Of a stretch of DNA of 64,000 bases, positions 11,701 through 63,375 are shown piece by piece. Source of the DNA: Diploptera punctata (lineage: Eukaryota; Arthropoda; Insecta; Blattodea; Blaberidae); NCBI GenBank assembly GCA_030220185.1, contig JASPKZ010004953.1, positions 656,501 through 720,500 of the forward strand. The letters are read 5' to 3'. Position numbers and translations under genes: made by a program. The notes beneath the pieces are model-generated. The model did no database searches and was not told the origin of the DNA. It was given only the letters and a program-made list of their open reading frames with translations. Position 1 is the first letter of the stretch. Each line of letters opens with the position of its first letter.

Positions 11701-14700
11701 TGGTTCATTGAGTACTCGGCGCCCCCACCACGTCGAGGTGATAGTCCACGGGGGGATGTGCATTTCATAGGCAGTTTAATTGTGATTCCCCCAATGTCAA
11801 CAACATCCATTGATGGCATAATCAGTTTGCAATGACTAGTTGTCTGTGTAAAGGCAAAAGTGTGTGAGGAGAATGTTGCTGCTGCAACATTTCAAGCACA
11901 AAGTCAGCGTTATCAGTAGACTATAGAGTCTGTAACAATTGTAAACGGTAGGGACGCATATGTAAGCATTTTCATAAAACCTTCCACGTTGTCATTACTG
12001 GATTGTTCGTCATGGTCCAGACGACAGGGCTTATCTTCAGTGACCTCCTAGATCACCGGATCTCCCCCCATGCAATTTTTTCCTTTGGGGTTTTGTAAAG
12101 GACAGAGTCTACGTGTCTCCATTGCCTGCTAACTTGCCTGAGTTGAGAGACAGGATTCGAGAAGCTGTTGCTGCCATCAATCCAGACGTGCTTATTAATG
12201 TATGGAAAGAATTAGCCTACATGTTGGATGTGTGTCATGTAACAAACGGGGCTCACATTGAACACCTATTAACTTATAATGTAAACTGGAAATGTTACTA
12301 CTTCAGTTAACGTGAGTTTTACTTTTGTCATAGTTAGTTAAAGTATAATTCAACACCTTTAAAATCGCTATATTCTTTTATGTACCCGGTATTTTGGAGT
12401 TTTTTATAAAGTTATACTAGCTAATAGCTGGCGTGCGCTGCTACGCCTAAATAAATGATAATGTGTTTACATTTAGTTGAGTAAGTAGAAGGAAAAATAA
12501 TTATAAATTTATATCATCATTATTTTAGATTACCCAGTGTTGCCCAATCCCGATCTTCTTGGCATAAATTATAAATTAGCTGAAAGATGAAATGTATTCA
12601 CATAGACTTTCACGGCCGGAGTTGCTATGATGATCTTGATGAAAATTTTCGGGCTGTAAGCTGTGGTCATGAGGCTTGTAGTTCCCTGACGTTTTGCCAG
12701 AGACTGCATCTGGCATCCTCAAGACAACCCTTGAGGATGCCAGACGCAGTCTCTGGCAAAACGTCAGGGAACTACAAGCCTCATGACCACAGCTTACAGC
12801 CCGAAAATCTTCATCAAGATCATCATTGAAACATGAAAATTGTGTTATGTTTAGTTGAATAATTTAAGGAAAAATAATTATAAATTTGATATCTTCATTA
12901 TTGCAGCTAAAATAACCCAATAAATTAATTAATTCTATTTCCAAACTACCTTCCATGCAATCCAAATAGTAAATAAAATTTCATCTTCCAAAATGTGATA
13001 TTCAAGCAATCACTATAAGTGAAGCCATATCGTAATTATTTTTAGATACCCTGTGCTGATTACCCAACATTGCCCAGGAATCTATTTATCCTGATGTACT
13101 TGGCATAAATGAGCTGAAAAACAAAATTTATTATTTTGAGTTATCCATAAAAGATTCAAAGTTTACAAGTGTGTTTCCACATAGTGACCCTAGTGTTCAT
13201 TGCACAAAGTATACCTGCAACTCATGTTTTCATACACATGCTCCACAAAACCTGGTGTGCACTCAATAATTTCTGCTGCCAGAATTTGTGCAAGATCTTT
13301 CTCCAACTCAACAGGTGTAGTACAAGCCCTAGAAGTCTGTAATACTTATTCTGAAACACGAGAGACATATCAGCCCATTGTGTTTTGTTCTTCAAACTTA
13401 TTTTACATCAAGATGGTACATTTCTGGGCATAGGTTCCTTATGAAAGCTTTATCTACTAAGTCTCCTCTATAACCCTAGAAGTCTAATATTTATTGTGAA
13501 ACACTCTGTGTGTGTGTATATATGTATATGTATATGTATATAGTATTTCTATCAAAATTTGTCGGTTTTGATCAAAACAACATAACAAAAATTTGATTGT
13601 GTGAAAATACTGGGAACAGGATTTATTTTACTTTTAAAAGAAGTTATAGTGATGATTTTTATATCCTTAAAACATTGATCCTGACCAGATTTGAACCTGG
13701 AACTAGAGGAGAGCATGGTAACTTCTAGTACATAAAAAAATAGGAAGGAAATTGATTTCTTAAAAATTGAATGGGGAAGAGAAATTAAAACAAAGATTAA
13801 TAAAATTAGGTAGGGAGAGAATATACATTTTATATTTAAATTAATATTGGGAAGTAAACATTATGAGGTTATATCATTAATAGTGAGTGTAGAACATATT
13901 TTTAATGACTCACCTCATATATTTTCAAATTTCTTTGATACCAGCGGTTTTAGACAATATCTTGTCCCTCTTCAGTCATGGTTTCCACTGATGAAATTCT
14001 GTGGTTGTTGATTTCTCTAAGGACATTACCTCTTGTGCTGCCATCTTTCATTGGGATTATAAACTTTGTAATTAAATTTTTATCCACCGGAATATCGAAG
14101 TAAGAAATCTGGAATTTATCAAATAAATTGTACTGATTGTAGTAAAGTATACATAGGAAAAACAAAAAGGAATTTGGAAACATGCACTAAAGAACATTTT
14201 AGAAATATTAAAAATTGTGAAATTGAAAAATCAGCAATTGCTGCATATAGTTTGCTAGAACATCATAAAATTGAAAAAGAGGCAAAACTTTTGAAACAAT
14301 TAGATAAACTGTTGGAATTGACAATTTGGGAAATGATATTCATTCAGAAAAATAAGTATCGGTCTATGAACTTCGATATTCCGGTGGATAAAAATTTAAT
14401 TACAAAGCTTATAATCCCAATGAAAGATGGCAACACAGGAGATGATGTCCTTAGAGAAATCAACAACCACAGAATTTCATCAGTGGAAGCCATGACTGAA
14501 GAGGGACAAGATATTGTCTGAAACCGCCGGTATCAAAGAAATTTGAAAATATGAGGTGAGTCGTTAAAAATATGTTCTCCACTCACTATTAAAGAATATA
14601 CAATTAACATAGCCATAGAGAATGGGTTTGAAGAAATTATGATTCACAGGAGAATAAATAAGTTTAAAAAACATAAATTATTAATGAAAGTATACTTCAA

Positions 14701-17700
14701 AAAGAAAAAAAGAATTAAAGTCCACAGTTAATAACCTATTCTCATCCTTTTAAATATGTGATTGTCTCTGTGTTAGTGCAATTTAAGACTGTTACAAAGA
14801 AACTTTTTGATAAAATAGACTTTTATTATTAGCTTCAAACATTTTTTATTTAGCTCTGGATTTAATAATTGATGAGAAATTTTCTCCTTTACAGTTCATG
14901 CAACAATATCGTCATTATGAAAGTGTTCTGGAGGTGTTTCAGCTGCAATCAGGTGTATTTAACAAGCGACTTGATGAACTGGTGATGTTCATAGCTCAAG
15001 TAAGTATTTTCATCTGCTTTCATCAAGGTGACATGAAAATGTAAATTTTGTCTCTGTGTTAATCTTTTAGAGAACATGAGTAAAAAAATCTTTTGATTAT
15101 CCAGTGTCCATCTTATTTATACTTTTTGTTACCTTGTTTATCTTTATTATGGAAGCTACAGTAGATTTAAAACTGCTAGAAGAGAGACGAACGGGCAGGT
15201 GAATGGAGAAGACTGCATAACAGTGAACTAAATTATCATAAGTAATGCCACGAGTGATTTCCAAATTTATCTAGAGAATTTGGAAATCGAGAGTGGCATT
15301 TGTTAGGACTATTTAACGAATAAAATTAAGCTGTTTACTCACAAATCATTATTTAACTATAGTTATTTTAAAATATTTATATATTTAATGTAAACGGTGA
15401 TGTTTGAAAACAAATCAGAAATGTGAGGTTATGTTCATTCACTGCTGCTTGATCATATTATTTATTGCCAAATAAGATCGCAATATTGTAAGAGTGCACC
15501 CAAGTGGAGAAATAATGAAACACATCAAACTATATATCATAATCAACATTACGGGTTATTAATTAATTTTTTTAGTAAACAACTCAGTAAAATCAAGGAA
15601 TCTTTTCATTATTTGCTATATTCAAGTATTTGTTGGAGAAAAATAATGCTTTGACCTGTTCAGAACATTAAAAAGGAGGAGCTTTCTTTATCACAAAAGC
15701 AGGAGCTGATAAAGAGAAATCGATAAAGAGCTAGGTGAAACACGACTGTCATTGGTTGTAAAACAACATTCATTGAAACGTGATTGATCATTGACTTTAT
15801 AAGAAACCAGATGTAATAACAATTAAGTCCAGTACACTATGATGAGCAGGACATATGCCATTAATAGGGTATGAAAAATGGGTGTGGAAACTGGCATGAA
15901 TAGGGAATGAAAAAGAGGCATGGAAACTTCGGTAGGATAACCAAAGGGAAGGCATCCAGTATGTAGACCTGGCATGAATAGGAAATGATAAAGAGGCATG
16001 GAAACTTATGATAGGAAAACCAAAGGGAAGGTATCCAGTAGGTGACCAAGAATGAAATGGGAGAATAATATTAGCCATGATTTGAGGGAGATAAAAAATA
16101 TGTAGGAAATTATTGGAAAACATTAGTTCAGGATAGATGTGTATAGATAGCATATATCCATGTGACCATGAACCTCCAGGTTAGTGCTAGTGAGCTACTT
16201 TGTAGTGAGATGAGCTACTAATTGTACATACTTAAATATCTAAGTAGATTGTTTTATTTTAGGAAGTAATATTTTGAGGTTCCTTTAATTAAATTATTTT
16301 GAGTCTACCCTCAGGGGTCCTCATCTAGGGGATATGTGGATGGCGACCACAAGGTGCCCAAGCTGAGCAAAACATTTCTTCCACTTACTTGTGTTTTGCA
16401 CTCTTTTAACTTTACTATCTAACCTCTCTTGGTTAACTCTTGTTTTTTCGACCCCGACGCTATTAGGGCATCCGAGGGCTACGGATTCTTTCCTTTCTTC
16501 CATTTCTTCTTTCCTTTATTTTCTTTTCTTCTCCAGAAAAGCCTGACCAGAGGTTATAAGTTGGCAGCCCCATCACTTGTCTTGCCTTTCTTTGGCCAGC
16601 AACCAATCGAAGGGACTATTATTATGCTTTCAAGTCTTATACGAGAATTTCCCGGAAGGTTCAAACTAATGAAGGATATCCCTGAAAAAATTACTAGTTA
16701 TAATAAAAGTTTGTCCAATTTTTTAAGATATTTAACAACAAGATACAGTGGAAAGAACATGTAGAAAGAATGGAAGAAAGTAGATTACCAAATAAAATCT
16801 TCCATTATTTTCCAAGAGGAAGAAGAGATGTCAGACGTCTTCGGAAGAGATGGTCTTAGATCTATTAGTGAAGATGGAACAGGCAACTCTTGCCTAAACC
16901 AGGAAGTGAAGAAGAAGAAGAAGAATAAAAGTTTGGGAATTATTAATCAAGTTATGAAACCATCCCTTGTACAAAAAAACACCAGATTACGTTTATATAA
17001 CACTTTGGCTAGACCAGTGTTGACCTATGGTAGTGAAGCATGGACACTAAAAAGATAACATGAAAGCAGAATAACGGTTTGTGAAATGAGATTCAAGCGC
17101 AGAACAGCAGGTTACACCAGATGGGATTGGAAAAGGAACACCAATATCTTAAAAGAATTGAAGACTGCCAATTTTGGAATATATTAAACAGTACCAACTA
17201 AATTGGAAACACCATCTAGAAAGAATGAGTTCAAATCGGATCCCCAAAGCTGTTTATAATTATATACCAAAAGGACAAAGGTCACTGGCCCATCCTATGA
17301 AACACTGGAGGGAACATTTTCTATAGGATCGTAACAGGCCTTGGCCTAATACTTGGAAGGAAGAAGAAGAAGATTTTGAGTCTGTTTATCTTACCTCAAC
17401 ATTAATATTGAGGTAAGATAAACAGACTCAAAATTATCTAAGTAGATACTTAGTCTGCTATATAAATTACTACAATTGTCAATGTTGCATGAATTTCTGA
17501 CATCTTTCTAGAAAATAGTTAAAAACATCTGAATTATTCCAAAATTGTAAAATTTCTTGTTTCATTAATAGTGAGTGGAGAACATATTTTAATAACTCAC
17601 CTCATAAAATTTCAAATTTCTTTGACTTTGATACCGCCCGGTTTCAGATGACATCTTGTCCCACTTCAGTCATGAGTGGGAGTCAAGACTGAAAAGGGAC

Positions 17701-18944
17701 GAGAAGTCGTCTGAAACCAGCAGTATCAAAGTCAAAGAAATTTGAAATTTTATGAGGTGAGTTATTAAAAATATATTCTCCACTCACTATTAATGATATA
17801 ACCTCATAATGCTTACTTCCCTACATTAATTTAAATATTCTTGTTTCATATTTTTAAGTCATACTATATGCAGATTTGATAAAAACTATGAAAAAGCTTT
17901 GTTCTTCAGTTTTCTCCCTAGTTCTTCAAACTATATATATATACTGTTTATTTTTTATTATTTCACTCACCTCATACTTCATAAATCATAGCAGACCCTG
18001 GGTTTCTTCACGTAATTTGTGACATTGTCAATGCTGCGTCACGTTCACAACTGACGTCCAACGGCCTTCTATCCTGCAGACTGACCTCCGCGCCATCTGG
18101 TGGCCGACCGAAGAATTTCCAAATCAGTCCTCTTTCTTTATAACCGGGTATTTCAAAGTTCATAGTTGTATTTTCATTCTTGCATATGTAAATTTTTTCC
18201 CAAATTGTGAGTTCCTTCGGTTTTTCCAATTGTTTAAGTAATTTTGTTTTGTTTTCAATTCTATGTTTTTCTGACCAGGCATGTGCAGCTATTGCAGATT
18301 TTTCTGTAAAAAATCGGGAATTTATCAAATTAATTGTAAAGATTGTGAAAAGATATACATAGGAAAAACAAAAAGGAATCTAAATACAAGATTAAAAGAA
18401 CACCTCAGAAATGTTAAAAATGGAGAAACCGAAAAATCTGCAATAGCTGCACATGCCTGGTCAGAAAAACATAGAATTGAAAACAAAACAAAATTACTTA
18501 AACAATTGGAAAAACCGAAGGAACTCACAATTTGGGAAAAAATTTACATATGCAAGAATGAAAATACAACTATGAACTTTGAAATACCCGGTTATAAAGA
18601 AAGAGGACTGATTTGGAAATTCTTCGGTCGGCCACCAGATGGCGCGGAGGTCAGTCTGCAGGATAGAAGGCCGTTGGACGTCAGTTGTGAACGTGACGCA
18701 GCATTGACAATGTCACAAATTACGTGAAGAAACCCAGGGTCTGCTATGATTTATGAAGTATGAGGTGAGTGAAATAATAAAAAATAAACAATATTAAAGA
18801 ACCTCATAGTGTTATTTCCTATCTACATAACTTATATATATATATACTTTTGGAAGAATTCAGATTTTTTAACTATTTTCTAGAAAGATGCCAGAAATTC
18901 ATGCAACATTGACTATAGCAGACCAAGTATTTACTTAGTTGGTA

Positions 18945-18985
<41 letters not shown>

Positions 18986-21900
18986 CTATATATACTAGAA
19001 GTCCCGGCCATGCGTTGCTGTGGTTAAAAATTTAAATTAAGTTGCTGTCTTTCAGCCAGATTACTTAAAACTAATACTTACATACGAAATTAATAATATT
19101 GAAAATAAAATAAACACTGAACACACTTAAATTATGAAATAATCATTATTTGAAATTCGCGGTTGCAACAAAAAGTACAGCCATCTGGATCTCTCTTTGT
19201 TAAATAATAAACCAATTACCTTACCAAATTACCTTACACCGCCATCTGTTAGAATTATGTGGAACTCACAGATAATTATAACTCTTTGTTAAATAATAAA
19301 CAAATAATTTGCAATAAAAAAATAATGTGACTATAAATTTAGTTATAAACTACCCCAAGTCTCAAGTTGGATCAAACTGCACACAGTGTGCAAAATTTTA
19401 TTAAAATCGGTTCAGTAGTTTAGGATTCCATCGCGGACAAACAACGTGACACAAAATTTTTATATATTAAGATATATATATATATATATATATAGGAATT
19501 TCCCAAATATATATTTCAAGAAGAAATTTAATGAATTTAATAGAATAGTAGTGCATATTTGCTAACTTTGTAAAAAGATTTTAATGATCTCAGGTATGTA
19601 CGACACTCAATTTATGTGGAGAGGTGAGAGTATATGTACCTTATTTTGGTATAGAATTTGCTGTTCCTGTGTAACAGGTACATAATACAAATAGATACTA
19701 TAGGTGTATAAGAATAAAAATAGGTTCTACAATTAATAGGCAACAGTATGTGTAAATAATTAAGTTTTATCAATTTGACTTCCTCATAACTATATATTTT
19801 CTTGTTTCAGGTTTCGCATTGTTATCCAGATGTGTTGTCAAATTTTCCTCAAGAGCTTGTGGACATATTAGAGAAACATCATACTGTATTAGATAGTACA
19901 ATGCGTATGGTAGGTGTAATTAATGTGCTTCTTTAATATTATGAAATTATACACCTGAAATAAATGTGAAAAATTACTTACTTGGATTGAACAAGCGTGT
20001 AACTTTTTTAAAATTAATTCTATGAATGGTCGATTCCGATCTCTGGAGACAATTTTGCCTAACCTGGCTTATAAAACCCCGCATGTCCACCAGCAGTGCT
20101 ATTTGATGACCTTGGATTCTTGCAATTTTTCTGCAGTAAGGTTTCCACTGTAGAAGGATATCGTCACCTCATAAGTCTAATTTAACAAAATTTTCAAGAG
20201 AGCAATAAAAACATTTTTGACATTGTAAATCAATGGTAAAGAGAAAAATGTTTGCCTGAACCGGGAATCGAACCCCGAACCTTTAGCTTTCTGTGCTAAT
20301 GCTCAGACCACTGAGCTAATCCAGGCTCCATTCCCATCCAAGCAGAAATCCTTCCTTTACCTTACTCTACTGGTCCCCCATTCAATTGCAATGAATCATC
20401 ATTCACAAATACACAATGAATGGCTTCTACCTGAAGAAGACATGAAGGGACTCCACACAGCTATAGCAATATTTATTAAATTAATATTGATTCAATATTA
20501 ATTTAATAAATTTTTGACATTGCTTATTACTTATTATAACTATGTTCGTAATTTAATTAATTTAATATTTGTAGGAAATAATCCTATGAGGTTACTTTTA
20601 ATTATTATTAGTTAGTTATTTTGAATAACTTTTTTTTTATTTTTCATTTTTTATTATTCTGCAGACTATAGTTTTGTTGTATCTATGCGGCATTGTCAAT
20701 GCATTCTAACTGTTCTGTTTGCAGTTGTCATCCTCTGTTGGCTGACTGATTAACTTCCGAATCAATTTTTTTTTTCCTCTTTGCCCAGAAATTTCAAAAT
20801 CATAGTTTTCTCCTTATTGTTGTGGATGTAAATTTTCTCCCAAATAGTGAGTTCATGTCCACCACTGTGGTCTCGGTAGCGTGCTGCCTTGTCACACAGC
20901 GGGCCCGGGTTCGATCCCTGGTCGGGGCAGTTTTTCTGGGTGAGGTTTTTATCGGGGTGTTTCCTCACCTGTAAGACAAATGTCACGAAAACTTTAAGGC
21001 CCAAACGGTCCCCAAAATTTAGTTGTGAAAACAGCTGATGATGGTTACGATGGTCGCCATTACTGCGGTGCTGTGTTTAAAAAAACATAGAAGTATGAGG
21101 TAAGAAGAATTCACGATTCATTTGACTCTTATCAATAAAACCTTAATGTTAAAAATTCCCAAATTTATCATATTAAAAAAATGTTTTTAATGTCCTATTT
21201 CAAATGTTTACATTCAAAATAAGACATTAAAACATAGTAACAAAATAATAAGCAAAGTCAAAAAAAAAGTTTTCATTGTTCTCCTGAAAATTTTGTTAAA
21301 TTAGACTTACGAAGTTTTAGAAATAAGGAGACGATATTATACAGAATGATTATGTCGATATTGGCCTACTCCTCCTTGCAGGCTTTCTATAGGCCTTCAA
21401 TAGATTGTGGCCTCCTGCTCCCAAGGGTCTTTTTAGAAGACCAAATACACAAGAATCCATGGAGGCAGCATAATGGTGACTTGATCAGGAATAGCACTGT
21501 AGGACACTGCCTATATTCCAGTTTTCTGCTCAATTTTTTCCAAGAACTGCTGTGTCGAAGTAAAGATATGGCTTGAAGCTTTATTCTGATGGATCCAGAC
21601 ATTGTTCACTTCTCTACCATAGACTGAAGGCATCTCATTGAAATAGATTTATAACAGGACATCCTGTAGGTAGTAAACAGGATTAAGTTTAGCTTTCTTC
21701 TTCTCTGCAGATAGTTAACTTCCCATTATAGCAAATGGCCATTAAGCCCTTTCTCTGTATTTGGTATACCAATTTAACATTTTTTTACAGCCTTGACCGG
21801 TAAAAAATTATCTGCGGCTCATTCATATCATTAAGGTATACACGTACCTCATCTAAAGTCACTACGAATTTCCTTTTTATACCAGCTAGATTGCATCCAT

Positions 21901-24900
21901 AGAGGTTCCTACCATTGCTACGCCTTTCTGCAATGTCTAACTCTTATGTTGCTTCTCTAAGTTTAAATCTCTATTATAGTGCTTAGCTTTTTGAGTTGCT
22001 GGATTCTTTCTGTGACAAGGACTTAAACTTTGCTGACCACTTCAGGGGTGCAGCTTGTGGTAGTCCTAGGATATATATATATTTTTTTCCCCCGCTTAGG
22101 AATAAATCTTATATAGGCTTTACATATTGCCATTTTTTTGGAAATAAACCACATTTATTGATTCCCATTTTTGGAAATATACAAATCACACTTCTTCCAA
22201 ATTTCTATATCATCACTATAGCTGTATTTAGTGTCGGAATGCCTATTATATAGCCCTCCGAGAATGGTTTGATTTCTTTGGCATAATTGCAATCAAAGTG
22301 GTTCCGACCAATTTGACAGAACACACTTGACTGATGAAAATGCACATCCGTGAGTGATGACTCTGCTGCAAATAGTAGTGACATCATATTTCAAAATTGT
22401 CCCAGAAATTGGAATCAACCCTTCATATGTATCAAACTTTACTACTATGGGGATGCAGGGATTAAAAAGAGAAATTTGTGCTTGCTTCTGGAAGTCTATG
22501 TAACTCAATGGTTTGGGTCAACTATTACATTCATAATTAACTTATAGCACAATGTAAATCTCATCATAATGCATTCTTCATTTAGAAGCAACCTTTTTGT
22601 ATTGTAAATTAAGTTATGAGGTTACGGGGATTAAAGAGAAAGAGAAATTTGTTTCAGTGAAAATTACAATGGGAAGTAAAACACTATTTTGATAAATTAA
22701 GGTAAGATGATTACAGACTCAAAAAAACTTGACTATGTGGTAAATTGCAGATTTTATTTTAAAAAGATAAATTAATTATACTTGAAGAGAAAAATTTTCG
22801 TCCAGACCGACTTGAACCCGGGACCTTTGGCTTTCTAGCTTGCTCTACCATCTGAGCTACCAGGGCAAGTTCTGATCTAGATGCAAATGTTCTCTTATGT
22901 ACGTTGTAATAAAAACATCAAGATAAATTAATGCCTGAATTGGGATTTGAACCTGAAACCTGTAGTTCTGTATGCTAGTGTGCTAACCATTACATTATAT
23001 CAGGCTTCCAATGATGTAAAAATAATATGATTCTATTATATAAAAACCCTCATACTAATAATCCATATATAACTTTTATACAAGGTTTATACACATCTCA
23101 GTTGAAAATTCTTACTAATAAACACTATTAGCTGTTCAGTGTATAAGAGGTGTACAGCTTTACATGGGAATTGTTATACATGCTTTCAGCCTTGTTTAAG
23201 GATTGTATAACTAGACAAAATTGATGAAAGTTTCCTTAAATTTAATGCAAAATGCAACACTTTAATGACTATTTGATGGATGCACAGGACATAAATAATA
23301 TTAATAAATGCCTTTTGTTACGCTCATTCTCGATTAGGCCAAATAATATTTTAAAATTTAACATTGATTCATAAAAGAATATGTTCTACAATAGTTGCTG
23401 TGAGACAAGATTTAACCTGAATGTAGTTTAAATGCTTCATAATGTTATTTTAACAAAAGTTTCTTGCATCATTAATACATAATTTACATACCAATATAAA
23501 AATGTATTTACTTATATAGGTACTACTATTGCAGCAAATCACATGTTAGCTTGGTAGTCTTGTGGTTAGAGCTTCTTACTACAGTCAGTGGGGTCCTAGG
23601 TTCGATTCCCCGATCAAATTGCAGATGATTTTTTTTTCGCTTAAAGCATTATTCTGTTGTCGCTAACATTTCCTAATATTTTGAACTTTGTCTAATGCAT
23701 CTTAAAACACTGCATATAATTCATAAGTAATGGGAAAAACTTTTATTAGTTTCCAAGAATTGTTCGAAGTTCTTGACGTTAGATGGCAGCACATTATCTG
23801 TGAAACTAATTCTACGATATATTTGACGTAGCCTAAAGAAAAATATAAATTAATTAAAACACACTTATTTTTTCCATACCTCCCCAATTAGGGAATCTCT
23901 ATTTATTCTTATCCATACTCATTTCTTACACAATCACTAGTTGATGTTGTTTTCTTTCTGTTACAAACTGCGCGTAATATGTACTGACGCCTTAATGATG
24001 ATGAATATGTAACATATTGTGTATATGGATTATATTGTAATATAGCTCCTGTACATTTGTTAGTAAGGAAATTATACATGATCTATATAAGGCTTATACA
24101 TTGTATAACTAAACAACTGATGAAAGCCTGTATAAGAGATTTTATTAGTAAAACTGAAAGAAATTTATGCTTGTTTGTGGAGTTGCCTAAGTGGGTCAAT
24201 TTGAAGTTCTGGGATTCAAGTCCTGGTGTAGACAAAAAAAAAATCTTTGTTATGTTAAGTTTTAAAAAGCCTGGAATTTTTAATAAAAATGTTAAAACAT
24301 TTTTAAAACATTAGGAAGTAACATTATGAGGTTTAATTTGATATTTGAGTTTGTATTTTTTTAACATTCTTACCTCATATGATTGTTTTGTCGGACATAT
24401 GAGGTAAAAATGTTAAAAAAATACAAACTCAAATATGTTCTGAAACTAGTTTATAGTTAAGTAAGAAGAATAATATGAGGTGAGTGATAAAAATTCGACC
24501 TAAATGTTAATACATATTTAGGTATACTACATCATTGGTAAGTTGCACAAATATTATGTTGTGGTAAACAAGATTTTGAGAAAATGCAGGTTAAATGTTT
24601 CAAGGTATGAAAATTTGTAATGATAATTATAAACAATTTGAAATAAATGAGTAAAATCAAGCTGTATCATAATTAATTATGGGATATAACATTATGAGGT
24701 TTTCAAGTTAATAACTAATAAATGAGTCGTGAAATCTCATCTCATACCCCATAATCTTCAAGCATGGAACTACAATTTCTGGAGGTGTCCCTCCCATCTT
24801 CAGCATCTTTACGACTATAGAATCCTGATCTACACCTTCATCTAAAGTTACCATCTGGTGTTGATTCATTCATGTAGAAGAACAAATTTAGATCCATGAA

Positions 24901-27900
24901 TTTTTAAATTCCTGGGGAACAAAATTTGATTTCGAAGTTCATCAATTCAACAACAGGCGGAAACTATGAAGATGAAGGTGTAGACCAGGATTTAACAGTC
25001 GTAAAGATAGGTGAAGATGAGAGATAAGCCTCCAGAAACTGCAGTTCTGTACTTGAAGATCATGGAATATGAGGTGATATTTCAATCTTCATTATTTATT
25101 AGTTAATTTTATTAGATTAAAACTGTGTTGGTCGCACGCCGTAGCTGAGCGGTTAAGGAAGGAAGCCTTGGCGCAGAGCTACGGGACTTGTGCTGGTTCG
25201 AGTCTCCATGGGGGAAGAAAATTTTCTCATGGTATTTCGGTCAGTATGGGACCGGTGCCCACCCAGCATCGTGAGGCAATTGGGTAGCTACAATAAGTAG
25301 CGGCTCCAGGTTGAGGAACCAGCTATAACAGCTGGGGGACTCGACATGCTAACCACATGTCACCCCTACACTGGCTGTTGATCATCTACCTCTGTGATTG
25401 ACACATGTGGATGTGAAGGGCCAGCAGCCGGCTGGTAAAAGGGCAACCGCTGAAAAGTGGAAAGACCCTCAATCGGATCGGAAAACTGTGTTGGCATTGA
25501 CTAATATGGCACTTGTGTGTGATCTAATTTTTTCTTATATAAAGAAGATAAGTATAAAAACTTGATTTTTACAAAAAATTGGCATATTTGTGCATATGAA
25601 ATTCATTATAGTCTACTGTGGAAGTTTTTTCTGCTTTTCTAAAAAAATGTTTTTTTCTCTCCAAATAAAGGCAATTTGTGGTAACAATCTTATTTATAAT
25701 AATTTTTTCTTTTGCAGACATTATGCAGAGCCCTGATACTGTTGAGAAATAAGAATTTACTTACACCGACAGATCTGTTATCACTGTTTTTTCAACTCCT
25801 GCGATGTCAAGATAAGGCTTTGCGCAAGTTTTTAGAAACTCACATTATTACTGATATTAAGAACATGAATGCTAAACATAAAAATGCTCGTCTAAATACG
25901 GTAATACATATTTATGTTTATAATATTATTTATTTTAATTTAAATTAAATTAATTTTATAGTTTCTTATAGAACTGGAGTCATTGAATTCAGAGACTGAA
26001 TAGTATGTGATCTGCTATTTAATCTCTTGATCAGTGTATGATATCAAAATCAGTGGTGGTTACTGAGCATTCACATACTTGCATATGCACACCAAAAAAT
26101 AAAATAAATAAATAATACAGGGTGCAGCAGAAACAATGACTCATTTTAAATTGCTCGCCATTATTGGACATGGCTTCCTAGAGAGTTGATATTGGTCCCA
26201 ATGTGTAGTGCAGTTCTAAGCATTACCAGTCAGTATGGAGCGTTGGTCAAATGAACACTGTGTTTCCAATAGAAACGTTTTTCAAATGTGGTGACAGTGT
26301 CATGCGGACAGTGTTTGTTCCAGCAACATTTTAACATTGGTCAGAATGATCAAGATCCGTCTCGGAAGTCGATTACGAGATGGGTCCAGCAGTTCAAAGC
26401 AACAACATCTGTAATAAACAATAAGCTTGTTTATTTTTTTATTATTTCACTCACCTCATACTTCATAATTCCTAGCAAACCCAGGGTTTCTTCACATCAT
26501 TTGTGACATTCTCAATGCTGTGTCACGTTCACAACTCATGTCCAACGGCCTTCTATCCTGCAGACTGCCCTCCGCGCCATCTGGTGGCCGACCGACAAAT
26601 TTCCAAATCAGTCCTCTCTCCTTATCACCGGTTATTTCAAAATTCATAGTTGCATATGTAAATTTTTTCCCAAATTGTGAGTTCCTTCGGTTTTTCCAAT
26701 TGTTTAAGTAATTTTGTTTTGGTTTCTATTCTATGTTTTTTTGACCAGGCATGTGCAGCTATTGCAGATTTTTCGGTTTCTCCATTTTTAACATTTCTGA
26801 GGTGTTCTTTTAATCTTGTATTTAGATTCCTTTTTGTTTTTCCTATGTATATCTTTTCACAATCTTTGCAATTAATTTGATAAATTCCCAATTTTTTGCA
26901 GTCTTCAATGTTTTCATTTTTGTTGGTTTTTATTAAATTACCTAAGCTGTAATCATTTTTCGGTGCTAATTTAATGTTGAATTTGTTGAAAATTTTTTGA
27001 AACTTGTCAAATACTAAAGGATGGTATGTGAACTTCTTGAATTTTTTGCCTATATTTTTATCTGTCTGAAGAGTACTTTCATTAATGATTTTTTGTTCTT
27101 TGAATTTATTTATTTTCTTGTGTATCATAACTTAAACAATAAGCTACCTGGTAGGTCACGTATAGTTTGCACTCTGGACAACATTGCAAGAATAAGATCT
27201 GCTTTGGCAATGTCAACTGGCCACCGCGTTTGCCCGATTTATCGGCTTGTGATTTTTTTCTGTGGGGATTCCTAAAATCCAGATTGTATGCTAACAAGCC
27301 AACAACTCTTGAAGACCTGAAAAACAACATTCACGCCCAAATTGAGGCCATAACAGGTGACACTCTTGGTAAGGTTATGGAGAATGTACGTGTTTGTGCA
27401 GAAGATTGCATCGCCAACAATGGTGGACACCTAAAGAACATAATTTACAAAAAGTGACATGTGTAATTAATGGTAGGATGTGTTCTTTTGAACAATGTAC
27501 ACTAATATTGTGTAGTGGTATTTCTTCATACCAAAATAACATGTTTAAAATGGGTCATTGTTTCTGCCGATCCTGTATAAAATAAAATGCTATTTAAAAA
27601 TATTTACAATAACATTGTTTTGTTTTTTGCCTATTTTGGTTTCTGTAACTCGCTCTTTTCTTGTGTTTTGTTTTTTGCCTATTTTGGTTTTCAGTAAGTG
27701 AAGTTTTCTGTAACTTGCTCTTTTCTTGTGTTTTGTTTTTTGCCTATTTTGGTTTTCAGTAAGTGAAGTTTTCTGTAAGTGTTTTGTTTTTTGCCTATTT
27801 TGGTTTTCAGTAAGTGAAGTTTTCTGTAACTTGCTCTTTTCTTGTGTTTTGTTTTTTGCCTATTTTGGTTTTCAGTAAGTGAAGTTTTCTGTAACTCGCT

Positions 27901-30900
27901 CTTTTCTTGTGTTTTTTTTTTTTGCCTATTTTGGTTTTCAGTAAGTGAAGTTTTCTGTAACTCGCTCTTTTCTTGTGTTTTGTTTTTTGCCTATTTTGGT
28001 TTTCAGTAAGTGAAGTTTTCTGTAACTCACCCTTTTCTTGTGTTTTTAAGGGTTCTTTTAATAGTGCCACGCGTCAGATTAAATTTATTTATTTTGTCAT
28101 TAATATCTTCAATTTTAACCTATGATAAATTGAAACCTAGATATTTAAAACTGTTCTCTTGCTCTAAAATTTTATTATCAATTACTATTTTTGCTCTTAA
28201 GGTATATCATTATCAATTTATTCTTAGAAAGAATTGATAATGATACGTATCGAAACCGATCTGGTTATGTATATTATTTACAAATAGTATTGGAATTATT
28301 TATAATATTTATTATTAGCTTAAATCCATCCCATCCAATTAAAATTCTAATCATATTGGGCTAATAATCAAAAACATTCTTCAAGAAATTTAAAAAATAT
28401 GAGTCATGAAAATTCTACCTCTGTATTAAGTAACTGTCGTAATATTTTTTTTTTTTTTGCCAGTAACATTCACATTTATATCTAAATTAATGTTTTGTTC
28501 TTGCTTGTTTTTTCAGACGTTACAGAACTTCATGTACAGTATGTTAAAGGACAAAAATGCCAAGGCAGCAAAGATGTCTCTTGTAAGTTGTATACATAAT
28601 TACTTATTTTAAGAATTCACACTATGAGGTATATTCATTTATATAGATTTTCTCTATCACTCACCTCATATTGTTCTTCTTTTTGACTATAAACTAGTTT
28701 CAGAACATAGTTTCTGTTCCATTCTCAGTATCATCACGATCGTTGTTCTGTCGTCTTGAAGAGCCGTCCTTTGCTCCTTCCATTAGCAGACAGGTTTTTT
28801 TCAGTCTGCCAAAGGAAGGAGTGAAGTGCGGCTCTTCAAGACGACAGAACAATGATCGTGACGATACTGAGGATGGAACAGAAACTTCTTCTTCTTCTTC
28901 CTTCCAAGTATTAGACCAAGGCCTGTTACGATCCTATAGAAAATTTTCCCTCCAGCGTTTCATAGGACGGCCCAGTGATCTTCGTCCTCTTGGTGGTATA
29001 TAATTATAAACAGCTTTGGGGATTCGATTTGAACTCATTCTTTCAAGATGGTGTTTCCAATTTAGTTGCTACTGTTTAATATATTCCAAAATTGGCGTAG
29101 TCTTCAATTCTTTTAAGATATCGGTGTTCCTTTTCCGATCCCATCTGGTGTAACCCGCTGTTCTGCGCTTGAATCTCATTTCACAAGCCATTATTCTGCT
29201 TTCATGTTCTTTTCTTAGTGTCCATGCTTCACTACCATAGGTCAACACTGGTCTAGCCAAAGTGTTATATAAACGTAATCTGGTGTTTTTTGTACAAGGG
29301 ATGGTTTCATAACTTGATTAATAATTCCTAAACTTTTATTATAACTAGTAACTTTTTCAGGGATATCCTTTTCATCCCAGATAGAGAGATAATATCCAAG
29401 ATATTTAAATTGATTAGATCTCTCTAAAATTTTATTCTGGAGACAGATTTTACTTTGTATGGGGTCCTTCCCATGAAATGCCATAATTTTAGTTTTATTA
29501 ATTGATATTTCCATATTAAATTTGGAACCTATTTTTTGTAAATTATAAACTGATTGTTGCAAATCAATTTTGGAAAGTGCCAGAAGAGCTAAATCGTCTG
29601 CAAAAAGAATAGCATCGAGTTTGAGGTTCCTATTGATGGGTATATATCCTCGTTGTGTTTTCCTCCATTCATTTATTAATTTATTCATGTATATAATGAA
29701 AAGCACCGGTGAACAGAAACTATGTTCCGAAACTAGTTTATAGTCAAATAAGAAGAACAATATGAGGTGAGTATCATGGTCTAAATCAACACCTTGTATT
29801 CAAGGCAGTACAAACAAAATCCTCTCGGTATTAAATTATTATCAATCATCACAACTTTCAATAGTTGACACCTTCTTCACTTCCATACACAACAAAACAT
29901 TGATTATATTATTTTTGGTCTGGACATCTTACCTCAATATTAATGTTGATTTGTTCTTGGACATGTTTCAAAACAATTCTGTTTTATCGTCAGCTTTCCC
30001 TTGTCCAAGAACAAATCAACATTAATATTGAGGTAAGATGTCCAGACCAAAAATAATATAATTAAAATTACCTCAAAATATAACTTCCTAAAATTAAATA
30101 TTAAAACATTGATGTTTGTTGTGACATGTGAGTGATCTTAAAAGTTATATTTTTTTCTATTTGAAATTGTGAGTGATATTAAAGTTTCCATATGGTCACG
30201 CGTAGAAATGCATTATATAATGGAAATGGACAGGTAATGGCAAATGAGGGAAATTTTGAGGAAGTGGCTAAATTCAAATACCTAGGAACAATAATCACAA
30301 ATAGGAATGAGATGCACAAAGAAATTAAACATAGGCTCAATTCTGGAAATGCGTGCTATTATGCATTGCAGAGACTCTTGATGTCCCAGCTCCTTTCAAA
30401 AAACGTTAAACTGAAAATATATAAAACTATTATTCTACCAGTTATATTATACGGGTGCGAAACATGGACTCTTACTTTAAGAGAGGAAAGGAGATTAAGA
30501 GTATCCGAGAATAAAGTACTTAGGAAAATTTTTGGATCAAAGAAAGATGAACAGACAGGTGAATGGAGAAGACTACATAACAATAAACTACATGGTCTTT
30601 ATAGGAAGCCAGATATAATAAGAACAGTTAAGTCTCGTAGACTGCGATGGGCAGGACATGTCGCACGTATGGGGAATGAAAGACTTGCATGGAAGCTTCT
30701 TGTAGGAAAGCTGGAGGGAAAATGCCCAGTTGGTAGACCAAGAATGAGGTGGGAGAATAACATTAACTATGATTTGAGGGAAGTAGATTATACAGGGAAT
30801 GATTGGAAAGCATTAGCTCAGGATAGGGATGTATGGAGAGCTTATGTCCGCCCGGCCATGAACCTACGGGTTCGATAGTGCCAGTGAGTAAGTAAGTAAT

Positions 30901-45900: not shown

Positions 45901-48900
45901 ATTCAATTTATTCTTTAGGTGCATTTCATTTTTTCTGGAAATATTACATTTAATTCCTATCATATAATATTTCACACTCAGTTTTCGAGAGCTTAAACCA
46001 GATTGTGGGAACTTTATTTTTGTTATTTTTCATCTTTAATTACTAGTGCATGGTCTCGTAAGGAAATTTATCATAAGTAATGCCACGGGTGATTTCCAAT
46101 TTATCTAGATAATTTGGAAATCAAGAGTGGCATTTGTTAGGACTATTTAACGAATAAAATTAAGCTCTTTACTAAAAAAATGATTATTTTAATATGGTTA
46201 CCGGTGTTTTCAAATATTTATATAGTTAATGCAAACGGCGATGTTTGAAAACAAATTAGAAATGTGAGGTTATGTATATTCACTGCAACTCGATCATATT
46301 ATTTATTGCCAAATAGGATCGCAATATTGTAAGAATGCACTCTAATGGAGAAATAATGAAACATATCAAACTATTATAATCAACATTATAGGTTAATCAT
46401 TTATATTTTGAATAAACAACTCAGTAAAATCACTGAATCTATTCATTATTTGCTATATACAATGTATTTGTTGGAGAAAAATAATGGTCTAGCCTGTTCA
46501 GAATATTAAAAAAGGAGGAGCTTTCTTTATCACAAAAGCAGGAGCTGATAAAGAGCAAGGTGAAACATGACTGTCATTGGTGTAAAACAGAATTCATTGA
46601 AATGTGATTGGTCATTGACTACCTTTGCGACATGAGTTAAATAGCCTTAAAGAAATTGGAGAGGTTATTTATGCCTCACCTTATATTTTGCTCTCTTGCT
46701 TGAACATGTTTCAAAAAACATTTTCTTTCATCCTCAGTCAAAACTTTATTGAGTCTATGAGAGAGCAAAATATGAGATGAGGTGTAAATAACTGATTCAG
46801 TCTCTTTTATGAAATACCTCATAGTGTAACTTTCTTCTTATCAAATTTGTGATTGAAAAAATCAAATGTCTATATTTTATTTTTCAGAAAAACAAGAAGA
46901 AAAAGGATTCAGCTTGTTCTTATAATTTTTCAGCTCTCCATTTGGTTCATGACCCTCAAGGTACAGTCATATTTTATTTCTAATAATACTTACTTAATAC
47001 AGGCTTTCCACTTTACAGCAGTTTGCCCTTGATTCCTGCTTTCCAGAGACTCCTATCTTCCCATTGACCATCTTCCATTCCCCTCTTCATCATGGCATCA
47101 TATATTCCCTCATACCATGCTCTTCTACTTCTCCCCCTCTTCCTTCTGCCTGGTACCATCCAATCCAACACCTGTTTAGGCCACTAGTCTTCTGACATCC
47201 GTTGTACATGTCCATACCACTGTAGAGCTTTCTTTCTTATCCTATCGATAACAGTTTATTGTGCATCCATTTCTTGTCTGATATGTATTTCAAACATGTT
47301 GTAGCCTGGATATTCTCATACTTCTCCGTAATCCATCCATTTCTGTCGCCAAGATTCTTTTTTGCATCCTTTCATTTATTGTCCAGCTTTCTGATCCATA
47401 TGTAAGTATACTTTCTATTAAATTAATATTAGGAAGCTAAAGCTGTTACTATGATTGAAATAAGTATATTAAAGTACACTACTAAATTATTGTAATCGAA
47501 TGGTAAAGAGAAAAATTTATGCCTGAACCGGGAATCGAACCCCGAACCTTCAGCTTTCCGTGCTGATGCTCTAACGAGCTAATCCAGGCTTCCTTCCCAT
47601 CCAAGCATAAATCCTTCCTTTACCTTACTGTCTTGGTCCCACATTCAAATGCTTTGAATCATCATTCACAAATACACAATGAATGGCTTCTACCTGAAGA
47701 AGACATGAAGGGACTCCACATAGCTATAAAAAAAAAATTTCTCTTTACCATTCGGATACTTTCTATTATTGATAATTAAATGAATCGTGATTTTTTTCTT
47801 ACCTCATACATCTATGTTTCTTTAAACACAGCACTGCAGTATCGGCGACACTTTGTCGTCATCGTCAGCTGTTTTCACGACTGTCAATTTTTTCTCCTTT
47901 TTGCCAGTAATTATCTAGACTGCCATCTGGTGTTCTTTTGAAGGAATTCCTCTTCAAACTGCCATCTGATGTTATTTTGAATGAATCATTTCCTAAACTG
48001 CTATCTGTTGTATTTTTGAAGAACTTTGTAATCAAGCTCGGTTCGTCCGGAATCTCAAAGTTCATAGTTCTAGCATGGCTTTTTTTGAATATATATTTTT
48101 TCCCAAACTGTTAAATCCAAAGGTTTTGATAGATGTTTTAAAAGTTTTGCTTCTTTTTCAATCCTATGATGTTCTAATAAACTATGTGCTGCTATAGCTG
48201 ATTTTTCAATTTCTCCATTCTTTATGTAAAAAAGAGCACTTCAGAACCATAAAGAATGGAGAAATTGAAAAATCAGCTATAGCAGCATATAGTTTATTAG
48301 AGCATCATAGGATTGATAAAGAAGCAAAACTTTTAAAACATCTATCTAAACCTTTGTATTTAACAGTTTGGGAAAAAATATATATTCAAAAAAACCATAC
48401 TAGAACCATGAACTTTGAGATTCCGGAAGAACCAAGCTTGATTACAAAGTTCTTCAAAAATACAACAGATAGCAGTTTAGGAAATGATTCATTCAAAATA
48501 ACACCAGATGGCAGTTTGAAGAGGAATTCCTTCAAAAGAACACCAGATGGCAGTCTAGATAATTACCGGCAAAAAGGAGAAAAAATTGACAGTCGTGAAA
48601 ACAGCTGACAATGACGACAAAGTGTCGCCGATACTGCAGTGCTGTGTTTAAAGAAACATAGATGTATGAGGTAAGAAAAAAATCACGATTCATTTAATTA
48701 TTATTAATTGAAACTCATAATGTTAAAAATTCCCAAATTTAATATATTTCTATTATTGTCTGTATAATCTCTTTTTTTGTTTTTCTGGTCAAATTTCTAT
48801 TCCATAAAAGACCATTCAGGTATCTAATCGCCTTCCTTGCACAATTTACTCTGTTAATATTTTTTTCACAAGTACCAGATTTATCTATTATAGATCCAAG

Positions 48901-60293: not shown

Positions 60294-60602
60294 GTAAGTG
60301 TACAATACATTCAAATAGAATTATGAGTATGTGTTCTGCTCAATCCAATTTCTTCTTCTGTCCTCGTCAGGTGAAGTGAAATTGCTTATTCTGTGATTAC
60401 AAGAATTGGTCAGCCCATTGGTCGTAGGGCCTCCTCAGGTCTCTCCTATCTCAATGGTTGGTAACTTAGTCCTTTCATTGGTAATCAATCCTCTGTATTC
60501 TCAAAACATACTGTTACCATTTAATCTGATAATTGAATTGTTCATTTGTTAAAAGGTGATATTTGTCACTTTTACTAAAATTGAGTTATTAATGGATTCT
60601 TA

Positions 60603-60987: not shown

Positions 60988-61419
60988 ATGGATTCTTACA
61001 GTATGTAGATAGGCACAGCTTTCAGTGAAAAGAATACGTGGTAGATCACAAATAAGCATTGAAAAATTATTCATTTTTAAAAGGGAATATGTGTTGTACA
61101 TATCCCTTTTTTAACAATGAACATATGAAATACAGCTGCAGTATGCTTCACTGAGGGAAAGGAAAACTATATCTAGATGCAGTTGAATATTAAAATTATG
61201 CATAATATGTTCATACAACAGATCCCACATTTCAAAGGACATTTTATTATAAATATTATTTACACATTTTTAATCAAAACTTTAGATATTCCTGTGGGAG
61301 GCCTCAAATCACCATGTGTTCAGTATGTGAAAGCCTGAAGATTAAAGACCCAAGCTTAGATAAAAACATTAAGAAGAAATTACTTTTTATTACATGCTTT
61401 ATATTAGCTTGACCTGTAT

Positions 61420-62080
61420 CTATCTATCTATCTATGTAACGGAATCTTTCAACGCGATTTTCACCCACTTAAAATTATTGGATCGACTTGAAACTTTGTA
61501 TACGTATAAAGTACCCGTGACAATACAATAATTTTATATTTATTTTCTAAAATCCTGGCCAGAATCATCAGAAAATCAAAAAAAGTGTCTTTGTATCTAT
61601 GTAACAGAATTTTTGAACACGATTTTCACCCACTTAGAAACATTGGATCGACTTGAAACTTTGTATATGTATAAAGTACCCGTGACAATACAATAATTTT
61701 ATATTTATTTTATAAAATCCTGGCCAGAATCATCAGAAAATCAAAAAAAGTGTCTTTGTATCTATGTAACAGAATTTTTTAACACGATTTTCACCCACTT
61801 AGAAACATTGGATCGACTTGAAACTTTGTATATGTATAAAGTACCCGTGACAATACAATAATTTTATATTTATTTTCTAAAATCCTGGCCAGAATCATCA
61901 GAAAATCAAAAAAAGTGTCTTTGTATCTATGTAACAGAATTTTTGAACACGATTTTCACCCACTTAGAAACATTGGATCGACTTGAAACTTTGTATACGT
62001 ATACAGTACTCGTGACAATACAATAATTTCATATTTATTTTCTAAAATCCTGGCCAGAATCATCAGAAAATCAAAAAAAT
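61420..62080 (+). repeat. 165-bp tandem array, four copies
   Basis: Units start near 61420, 61585, 61750 and 61915 (TGTCTTTGTATCTATGTAAC), with CCCACTTAGAAACATTGGAT, CCCGTGACAATACAATAATT and ATCCTGGCCAGAATCATCAG inside. Copies 2-4 are nearly identical, so the expansion is recent. The array is followed by GGTATAATAGG and the tRNA-Tyr-like sequence. Confidence 0.95.
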
Positions 62081-62126
62081 GAAAACTGGTATAATAGGTA
62101 GCTTGTCGACTTTTTAGTCAATCATT

Positions 62127-62212
62127 GTAAGAGCTCAGTTGGTAGAGCGGTGAACTCTTAGTGATATATAATTTCAGTAATCCATAGGTCGCTGGTTCAA
62201 ATCTGGCTGGGA
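62127..62212 (+). pseudogene. Degenerate tRNA-Tyr-like copy
   Basis: AGCTCAGTTGGTAGAGCGGT, the intron-like ATATATAATTTCAG and GGTCGCTGGTTCAAATCTGG are intact. The 5' acceptor strand and the anticodon (loop CUCUUAG) are destroyed. A T-run follows. Confidence 0.75.
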
Positions 62213-62284
62213 GGATTTTTTTTTAGAAGAGTATTATTTTCAACTCATACTAAAATAGTATCGAATTTATAAAGATATTTACAT

Positions 62285-62740
62285 TTTTATCTTATTCTGT
62301 AAAATATTAAAACTAAAAAATAAATAATAGTTTTAAAAAACTAAAACAACACGCTTTATTAGAAAACCGAACTAAAAAAAATGAAAAATAATTTTAATTT
62401 CCAACACGCTTGGGATAAATAATTTTACCATTAAAAGCGTGGGGTGCTCTTTATGATTTTTACATTTCTTCTTAGAGACTTTACTTTTACCAATATCTGT
62501 TTATTATCAAATATATTAATTGATAAAAAGCACCCCACGCTTTTGATGGTAAAATTATTTATCCCAAGCGTGTTGGAAATTACAATTATTTTTCATTTTT
62601 TTTAGTTTGGTTTTCTAATAAAGTGTGTTGTTTTAATCAATTGAGTTGGTGTTTACTTGATGAAAATCCATATTTATTAATTAAATAAAAATAAAACTAC
62701 GTTGTGTTGTTTTAGTTTTTTAAAACTATTATTTATTTTT
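62285..62740. repeat. GCGTG-type fold-back, best copy
   Basis: Left AACACGCTTTATTAGAAAAC...AGCGTGGGGTGCTCTTTAT and right AAAAAGCACCCCACGCTTTT...CTAATAAAGTGTGTTGTTTT are inverted copies around a centre near 62490. Its position next to the tRNA-like unit repeats the arrangement at 40690-41590. Confidence 0.8.
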
Positions 62741-62742
62741 TA

Positions 62743-63111
62743 GGAATTCACACTATGAGGTATATTCATTTAGGTAAAATTTTATTACTACCTCATATTT
62801 TTCTTCTTTTTTTAATTTAAACTAGTTTTGGAACTTTACACCTTAGCTCCATCTTCAGTATTTTCAATGTTTGGAAAAAAATCTACATCCAAAAAAACAA
62901 AAAGGAGAAATTAATGAACTTTGAAATTCCCGGGAAGAATGACCAGATTTTGAGATTTTTTACCAACGGGGGAGCGTAAGACAACAGAACAACGGTCATG
63001 AAAATACTGAAGATGGAGATGAAGTGTAAAGTTCTGAAACTAGTTTAAATTAAGAAAAGAAGAAAAATATGAGGTGAGTGATAACATTTTACCTAAATTT
63101 AGAAGAAAGCT
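62743..63111. mobile_element. Penelope-type fold-back FB-L
   Basis: Left module GGAATTCACACTATGAGG, ends CTACCTCATATTTTTCTTC / GAAGAAAAATATGAGGTGAG. Between the arms is an endonuclease remnant (EKNLHPKKQKGEINELNSRE-like: KIYIQKN...MNFEIPGKN, 62878-62950). Confidence 0.82.
63007..63046 (+). ncRNA. Hammerhead-ribozyme-like motif
   Basis: CUGAAGA, U, stem II GGAG.../GUUCU (weak), GAAA, ACUAGU stem III, U. The left-arm sister on the minus strand has a stronger stem II (GGAGCU/AGUUCC) but CAAA for GAAA. Confidence 0.5.
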
Positions 63112-63159
63112 ATTGCTGAGGGAATTGTACACAAAGAACCAAAATCAAGTTTTTTTTTT

Positions 63160-63375
63160 TTTTAGACTGGCAAACATTTCACCTCAAATTATTGGTTCAG
63201 TTTGAACATGTTTCGATATAATCTTCTATATCATCTGACCAATCACATTTCAATGAATTTTGATTTACACCCAATCACTCTCTTTTTCACCTCGATTTTA
63301 TCAACTTAATTTTATCACATTAAAATCAAGCTCCTCCTTTTTAACATTCTGAATAGGTCAGACCATTATTTTGCA
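63160..63375 (-). repeat. Penelope-type 3' end joined to the 560-bp repeat family
   Basis: 63160-63243, minus: AAACATGTTC core half with CAGAUGA, stem II AUAU/AUAU, GAAA, ACAUGU, then TTTGAGGTGAAATG. 63244-63375 matches the 3' part of the 560-bp repeat (AGGAGGAGCTTGATTTTAAT). Confidence 0.55.

Follow-up and report, generated by a model that had tools for sequence, protein, structure and literature searches.

Probable minimal hammerhead ribozymes in Penelope-like retrotransposons of the cockroach Diploptera punctata, with a large U3-A8 clade

The stretch analysed here, 64,000 nucleotides of the Diploptera punctata genome (contig JASPKZ010004953.1, positions 656,501 to 720,500; hereafter the window), holds twelve 3' ends of Penelope endonuclease genes, and beside every one of them lies a copy of a short motif with the layout of a hammerhead ribozyme (B5, whose stem II has decayed, included). 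Coordinates are collected in Table 1. Measured from the point where the endonuclease match ends, the first base of the motif core falls anywhere from 22 nt before to 72 nt after. A GIY-YIG domain (Pfam PF01541) was recognised in all three endonuclease frames tested, and the two proteins closest to the frame at 18308-18724 are hypothetical proteins of Diploptera punctata, the best of them 97% identical; the viral contigs scanned for the endonuclease contained no relative. Three of the 12 cores at these ends are canonical (A1, C1 and F2), four have U at position 3 and A at position 8 with GAA and the cleavage-site H in place (B1 to B4), and five show one or more additional core changes (A2, B5, D1, D2 and E2). 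No motif lies inside the tandem arrays of the window. A preliminary description of this DNA had placed all the motifs in Penelope-derived 3' ends, which is right for the 12 endonuclease ends but is not supported for G1 (36494 -): this copy sits in a palindrome (36374-36729) that has no internal endonuclease match, and the adjoining frame, 35800-36315, ends elsewhere.

Head-to-head inverted repeats occur at families A, B, C, D, F and G, with the ribozymes facing outward. Inverted pseudo-long terminal repeats (pLTRs) with palindromic junctions have been described for Penelope-like elements (PLEs) in the relevant passages of PMC3846280. No intact reverse transcriptase and endonuclease between two pLTRs was seen in the window; RVT_1 fragments lie at 43788-44519 (-), 29242-29799 (-), 48739-49308 (-) and 39845-40267 (+).

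Segmentation by hand yielded 30 copies of the hammerhead-like layout in eight families, A to H, and one broken copy, F6. A descriptor that demands a perfect core, with CTGANGA and GAAA on either side of a stem II no shorter than 4 bp and with a short A..U stem III before H, finds 9 sites in the window; 60 dinucleotide shuffles yield 0.083 on average and never more than 1. Once a stem I of at least 3 bp is required as well, two sites are found (14496 + and 36494 -), against none in 60 shuffles. The set of 30 was obtained by relaxing the core and tracing homologous copies; the core CUGANGA...GAA...H is fully canonical (H not G) in 10 of them, namely the 9 descriptor sites and 24803 -, or in 14 with the U3-A8 copies B1 to B4 included, the core of family B being UUGANAA. 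Stem III is closed by A15.1-U16.1 in all 30 copies as segmented, and a stem I adjoining the core is present in families A, B, D, F and G.

The recurrence of the layout, as claimed in the preliminary description, is thus borne out by the 30 copies, F6 and the descriptor sites. The single-U linker reported with it holds in seven families; in family A the linker base is G. All seven reported forms of stem III were found in the window. Five of the seven reported stem II pairs occur as written: GGAAG/CUUCC at 36494 -, GGAGG/CCUCC at 24803 -, GACA/UGUC at 14496 +, GGGGC/GCCUU at 42918 + and AAAACA/UGUUUU at 35779 -, 44943 -, 44954 + and 29993 -. GGAACA/UGUUCC is only approximated, by GGAACA/UGUUCU at 28728 - and by UGAACA/UGUUCC at 29710 +, a copy that lacks the 5' core. 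The site given at 12590 (GCCAGA/UCUGGC, 12696) could not be upheld: the palindrome at 12621-12832 lacks the CUGANGA-stem-GAAA layout and was rejected as a hammerhead. It is an inverted repeat with 103-nt arms and a 6-nt centre, and resembles a foldback element.

The Rfam hammerhead models, whose use had been proposed as a check, gave no match in the window, either at gathering score or at E up to 10. The motifs are therefore not filed under the Rfam hammerhead families, and because those models are blind to them we built a covariance model of our own from seven copies, all belonging to families A, D, E or F, with B, C, G and H held out. It recovered six of the seven C copies (E 0.00029-0.04), four of the five B copies (0.00098-0.022) and G1 (0.002). 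Matches between E 0.05 and 5 are a mixture of degraded true copies and noise, such as 57574 -. For the structure that we specified, standard pairs fill 85.7% of the pair cells in the seven copies and 64.8% after shuffling; the corresponding covariation scores are 0.671 and 0.237, and neither observed value was reached in 500 shuffles. The score falls to 0.05-0.33 when the pairing partners are displaced by 1 to 3 columns. When 3' arms were permuted between families, each represented by one chosen copy (in family E, E2 for stem I and E1 for stem II), the observed value was reached in 4 of 40,320 permutations for stem I (2 of 5,040 without E2) and in 1 of 40,320 for stem II. F1 had first been caught by a descriptor requiring stem I, a small bias; the test over genomic clusters described below used loci found without that requirement. 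The compensated changes previously noted in stem II are supported, and stem I, which lay outside that description, covaries between families as well.

A TGAGGTR tag lies within 75 nt of 20 of the 25 model matches with E of at most 0.05 (background: 515 of 18,264 windows). It stands 15-23 nt past the model match, and its conserved form, TATGAG/GTRAG, suggests a start codon beside a splice donor. Another AUG, formed by A9, the extra U that follows it and G10.1, is present in 54 of 60 loci retrieved from the genome, a count in which A9 and U were preset by the search pattern in 59 loci and only the G was free; the remaining locus, picked by another pattern, has the U too. Its frame is open to the donor in 11 of the 54, against 5 of 60 and 8 of 60 for the other frames. 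As it is open in just these 11, it does not look like a start codon, and the idea that the extra U serves to create one was dropped.

Genome counts were made in the 3.12 Gb assembly that contains the window. The pattern CTGANGAT..GAAAC..ATGAGGTRAG occurs at 16,281 + 16,254 = 32,535 places, and its reversed control at none; the number covers canonical core letters and tag, not stems, and the H base was not checked. The core of family C has 26,881 matches at up to 3 mismatches (control 0). The 60 loci (59 among the matches listed for canonical core and tag, and one of family C) were joined with 10 window copies, and two (L082 and L105), which have an inverted pLTR tail in the 5' flank, were dropped; the remaining 68 fell into 37 clusters by a crude k-mer rule. 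Over the cluster representatives, stem II has 4.57 of 5 positions paired, against 3.08 when permuted (z 11.1, 0 of 5,000). Its register, with one unpaired base after A9, gives at least 4 bp in 25 of 37 clusters, against 2 of 37 for each other register. The proximal part of stem I covaries too (z 4.6, 1 of 5,000), and 18 of the 37 clusters have a stem III that is perfectly palindromic, compared with 140 of 1,730 background words. The density of motifs is not unusual for this genome: the same kinds are found in tens of thousands of genome copies, and the window is dense in them because the genome is full of these elements. For comparison, 16 type I hammerhead families are mentioned for one coral genome in PMC7229834.

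Position 3 and position 8 of the core mostly vary together. Besides the C3-G8 places counted above, 21,287 tagged places have U3-A8 and 2,201 have U3-G8 (C3-A8 was outside the comparison). The U3-A8 places among the matches listed have many different stem II sequences. In 20 of them picked for diversity, stem I has at least 3 bp in 17, mostly GCA/UGC and GAA/UUC, and stem II at least 4 bp in 14; for permutation, one of the 20 was merged with a similar locus (n=19). A 33-nt pattern of family B, which permitted C or U at position 3 and G or A at position 8, has 1,278 genome copies, and the 100 among the matches listed are identical over the pattern and all U3-A8. This points to a recent spread with the U3-A8 core. 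As the copies are related by descent, they do not count as independent events; rather, an entire clade has spread carrying the exchanged pair. Natural U3-A8 hammerheads are recorded in PMC3088659, where covaried forms are active in vitro, and for that reason family B is plausibly functional. A literature search for U3-A8 hammerheads gave no match, which says little, as PMC3088659 words the pair otherwise.

Our preferred explanation, to which we give a probability of about 0.87, is that PLEs carry these motifs as minimal type I hammerhead ribozymes. The hammerhead would lie in the pLTR at the end of the GIY-YIG frame, some 20 nt upstream of ATGAG/GTRAG. A palindromic stem III, which was noted in 2011 (PMC3088659, Figure S8), suits pairing between two copies. 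These might be two RNAs, or two direct pLTRs within one RNA, and the resulting dimer would cleave after the predicted H, so that PLE transcripts would be cut within the pLTR. The protein of the element itself may assist cleavage, as in PAc, the Poseidon element of Anolis carolinensis. In energy estimates, the dimer fold beats two separate monomers in only four of seven cases (B1, D3, G1 and, by 0.2 kcal/mol, A1).

Several results, starting with the silence of the Rfam models, weigh against this explanation. The monomeric hammerhead is the minimum-energy fold in none of six stretches (z -0.48 to 0.57) and in none of seven cores, and the dimer fold is worse than two monomers in F1, C1 and H1 and is never the energy minimum of a dimer; with a gain in only four of seven and neither form ever at the minimum, folding alone does not prove the dimer. 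In families C and H the core is flanked by almost no stem I or by none at all (1 bp in most copies). In family D the cleavage position is occupied by G, and GAA is replaced by GAU (AUU in D4); such changes should block hammerhead cleavage. The held-out model misses B5 (absent up to E 5), C7 (2.1), G2 (0.14) and H1 (3), and 57574 -, which has no tag, is matched at E 0.12. Two of the five covariation measures are weaker, as 56 of 500 shuffles reach the value for double-sided pair changes and 14 of 500 that for further pair types. Only 13 of the 37 clusters have 3 bp or more of proximal stem I, namely 2 of the 15 with a GTAAG donor and 11 of the 22 with others.

Could the motifs have arisen by chance in DNA rich in repeats and in AT (66% in the window)? 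CTGANGA alone occurs 51 times in the window, and the example at 12590 was a false match of this kind. Yet 9 descriptor sites against 0.083, the recovery of held-out families and the empty reversed control beside 32,535 genome places refute chance for the set as a whole and make it highly improbable as an explanation; it may hold for single weak matches, such as 57574 - and untagged ones with E above 1. Another way to account for the copies in the window is that they are dead relics whose stems were inherited from formerly active elements. So few canonical cores, and the many copies that are truncated or in inverted pairs, speak for this, and judging by their core changes many window copies are probably inactive relics. 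The view nevertheless leaves the origin of the layout unexplained, and the identical U3-A8 copies of family B point to recent spread. It is compatible with ribozymes of PLEs rather than opposed to them, and for the window copies we regard it as a serious possibility, though not the likelier one. Somewhat harder to accept is the proposal that the pLTR stretch is kept as structured RNA or DNA that signals where protein binds and where reverse transcription starts internally, with self-cleavage vestigial or absent. Stem II is kept in families C and H, which lack the core-proximal stem I (C also keeps its core), and there is some support for an outer helix. However, the letters of the catalytic core are kept across many subfamilies and tens of thousands of copies, and at positions 3 and 8, which belong to that core, it is for the most part the pairing, not the letters, that persists (C3-A8 being uncounted). 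We consider this proposal rather unlikely.

It is tempting to speculate that the hammerhead is part of a larger RNA module, an idea that we offer as quite improbable in its full form. In helix a, a stretch about 4-14 nt upstream of the ribozyme would pair about 8-25 nt past the splice-donor-like tag; in helix b, the tag itself, (U)AUGAGGU, would pair with an ACCUCAU(A) that lies 28-49 nt beyond the donor. Crossing each other, these helices would form a pseudoknot that encloses the ribozyme and the start-codon-like and donor-like sites. Such a pseudoknot would lie downstream of the start codon, where in PAc reverse transcription starts, and might present the template to the telomerase-related reverse transcriptase, much as the pseudoknot of telomerase RNA does, and couple ribozyme cleavage to splicing or to the choice of template. 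Complementarity fitting helix a is seen in many subfamilies, among them D3 (AATCAATCGTGA/TCACGATTGATT), in family C (L125, GTCTGGG/TCCAGAC), in L088 (AGTTTGTG/TACAAACT) with its compensated relative L093 (GTATGTG/TACATAC), and in L108 (AGTTGGAG/CTCCAACT). The first, wider test on 60 loci was reached by 14 of 2,000 permutations. Narrowed windows gave z 5.1 (0 of 5,000; shifted controls z -1.0 to -1.2), windows preset before 27 fresh clusters gave z 2.3 (58 of 5,000), and all 35 new clusters gave z 2.6 (41 of 5,000). For helix b, the combination UUGAG..ACCUCAA occurs 21,545 times, against 1,516 for UUGAG..ACCUCAU and 1,938 for AUGAG..ACCUCAA (reversed controls 11, 3 and 9; AUGAG..ACCUCAU was outside the comparison); the lists for the latter two share several places, read from opposite strands. 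Of 110 loci, 27 have ACCTCAT or ACCTCAA at a distance of 25-60 nt beyond the donor.

These outer helices have their own counter-evidence. The windows for helix a were narrowed after inspection of the loci, so that the z of 5.1 is partly fitted, and in the 27 fresh clusters one shifted control reached z 1.4 (473 of 5,000), the other z -0.7. By eye, helix a was not seen in families B and F or in the locus groups of L067 and L068. Helix b amounts to conserved letters with one A/T flip in the clade of family C (TTGAG with ACCTCAA). A literature search named no PLE pseudoknot in the titles and abstract beginnings of the matches listed.

Elsewhere in the window, a 40-bp unit is repeated about 125 times (92% matches) in a tandem array of about 5 kb at 50278-55256, and further arrays lie at 61429-62079 (165-bp unit), 27616-28047 (65/116/131-bp) and 7367-7636 (103-bp). 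Seven tRNA matches exceed the Rfam gathering score, several of them nearly alike: 33816-33888 (-), 34203-34274 (+), 38604-38676 (-), 41258-41348 (-), 47520-47589 (-), 56047-56119 (-) and 20254-20325 (-). They are likely tRNA-derived short interspersed elements, with 41258-41348 perhaps an intron-bearing tRNA. Seven selected open frames of the window gave no host domain above the Pfam cut-off, and the placement of the copies in the introns of one gene, as given in the preliminary description, is not established; a short open frame at 13190-13345 (-) has the look of a host exon and matches no Pfam family above cut-off. Elsewhere in the genome, a locus with two direct family C pLTRs 3.2 kb apart (L009, 586-3830) was rejected as a full-length PLE: between the pLTRs lies a DUF659 frame, which we take to be hAT-like, and no PLE open reading frame. 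That frame is DNA captured or later inserted between the pLTRs.

Table 1. Hammerhead-like motifs, endonuclease frames and tag example in the window. E, E-value of the covariance model (held-out families B, C, G and H; F6 as indicated).
Feature	Coordinates	Strand	Remarks
A1	14496..14538	+	Canonical core; stem I UGA/UCA; stem II GGACA/UGUCU; stem III ACC-GCC-GGU; predicted cleavage after A; overlaps endonuclease stop codon
A2	13933..13975	-	Inverted partner of A1; G12 to A
A3	17689..17731	+	G8 to A
A4	17626..17669	-	A9 to U
B1	18704..18747	+	Core UUGACAA (U3-A8); stem I AGCA/UGCU; stem II UCAC/GUGA; stem III ACCCAGGGU; predicted cleavage after C; E 0.022
B2	17988..18031	-	Inverted partner of B1, 260/260 identical; E 0.022
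B3	35551..35594	+	U3-A8 core; E 0.022
B4	26472..26515	-	Core UUGAGAA; 228/246 aligned bases as in B1; E 0.00098
B5	20658..20699	-	Diverged B relative, 170/224 aligned bases; UUGACAA kept; stem II decayed; AAA for GAA; missed by model
C1	35740..35779	-	Stem I 1 bp; stem II AAAACA/UGUUUU; stem III ACAUGU; directly past stop of endonuclease frame 35800-36315; E 0.00029
C2	44902..44943	-	Head-to-head pair with C3; E 0.0022
C3	44954..44995	+	Head-to-head pair with C2; E 0.04
C4	29954..29993	-	Centre of inverted repeat; E 0.001
C5	43501..43540	+	Tag not found downstream; E 0.0016
C6	46697..46737	-	Diverged; E 0.0013
C7	63199..63236	-	C-like, damaged core; E 2.1, not significant
D1	47826..47868	-	Stem I ACAG/CUGU; stem II GACGACA/UGUCGCC; stem III ACUGCAGU; GAU for GAA; G at cleavage position
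D2	48605..48647	+	Inverted partner of D1; additionally G8 to A
D3	45684..45726	+	Stem II GGUGAU/AUUGCC
D4	21035..21076	+	AUU for GAA
E1	24762..24803	-	Canonical core; stem II GGAGG/CCUCC; 1 bp of stem I at core
E2	25011..25052	+	Inverted partner of E1; C3 to G; stem I AUAG/CUGU; stem III ACUGCAGU
F1	28686..28728	-	Stem I AUA/UAU; stem II GGAACA/UGUUCU; stem III ACUAGU; G8 to A
F2	63007..63051	+	Canonical core; stem III ACUAGU; stem I 2 bp
F3	62814..62858	-	Inverted partner of F2; G12 to A
F4	29710..29744	+	3' half (UGAACA/UGUUCC); 5' core lost
F5	24434..24457	+	3' part of motif
F6	28863..28912	+	Inverted partner of F1; canonical CTGAGGA; 3' half lost; model E 0.049
G1	36457..36494	-	Canonical core; stem I CUG/CAG; stem II GGAAG/CUUCC; stem III AGGCCU; predicted cleavage after C; best candidate of the preliminary description; E 0.002
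G2	36609..36646	+	Second arm of palindrome 36374-36729; core CTGCTGA; E 0.14
H1	42918..42956	+	Core CTGAATA; stem I 1 bp; stem II GGGGC/GCCUU; stem III ACAUAUGU; E 3, not significant
Penelope GIY-YIG endonuclease frame	14072..14521	+	Upstream of A1; stop to stop
Penelope GIY-YIG endonuclease frame	18275..18727	+	Upstream of B1
Penelope GIY-YIG endonuclease frame	35800..36315	-	Upstream of C1
Penelope endonuclease C-terminal frame	48198..48608	+	Ends in D2
ATGAG/GTRAG tag (example)	14551..14560	+	Start codon and 5' splice-site-like

Minimal type I hammerheads of PLEs were reportedly described by Cervera and de la Pena in 2014 and by Lunse, Weinberg and Breaker in 2017. That PLEs carry hammerheads, as the preliminary description already held, is stated in a review according to which all available PLE sequences have such motifs (PMC6155905), and the motifs found here are ordinary in kind. 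They share with the published ones the host element, the location in the pLTR, the short or missing helix III and the proposal of a dimer, for PMC7761336 and PMC6155905 speak of minimal hammerheads in tandem pLTRs and of possible dimer cleavage. The U3-A8 clade and the outer helix go unmentioned in the accounts of PLE hammerheads that these two papers give. In the portion of PMC11167929 that deals with PAc, the hammerhead likewise sits at the junction of pLTR and open reading frame with stems I and II, C3 and G8 matter, and the start codon lies at the beginning of stem II; here, by contrast, the AUG that begins with A9 does not look like the start codon, and a splice-donor-like tag follows the ribozyme. 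The compensated U3-A8 pair is shared with Perreault et al. 2011 (PMC3088659), whose text mentions 'several' natural examples, against 21,287 tagged copies in this one genome. Satellite hammerheads of newt and axolotl, as presented in PMC7229834, also have a weak helix III with a palindromic loop and cleave better as dimers, but they are non-autonomous tandem repeats (retrozymes) with loop-loop contacts, not pLTRs of PLEs.

What deserves the attention of specialists, in our opinion, is the huge U3-A8 clade, the regular extra base after A9, the families in which stem I is missing beside the core, and the outer helix. The outer helices, if true, would link the ribozyme to the splice site and to the start of reverse transcription in a telomerase-related retroelement. 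With tens of thousands of copies in compensated subfamilies, these elements constitute a natural mutagenesis set, which reveals the pairs that evolution has kept: stem II, stem I, the 3-8 core pair and possibly the outer helix. The cockroach genome thereby supplies U3-A8 hammerheads that appear structurally intact.

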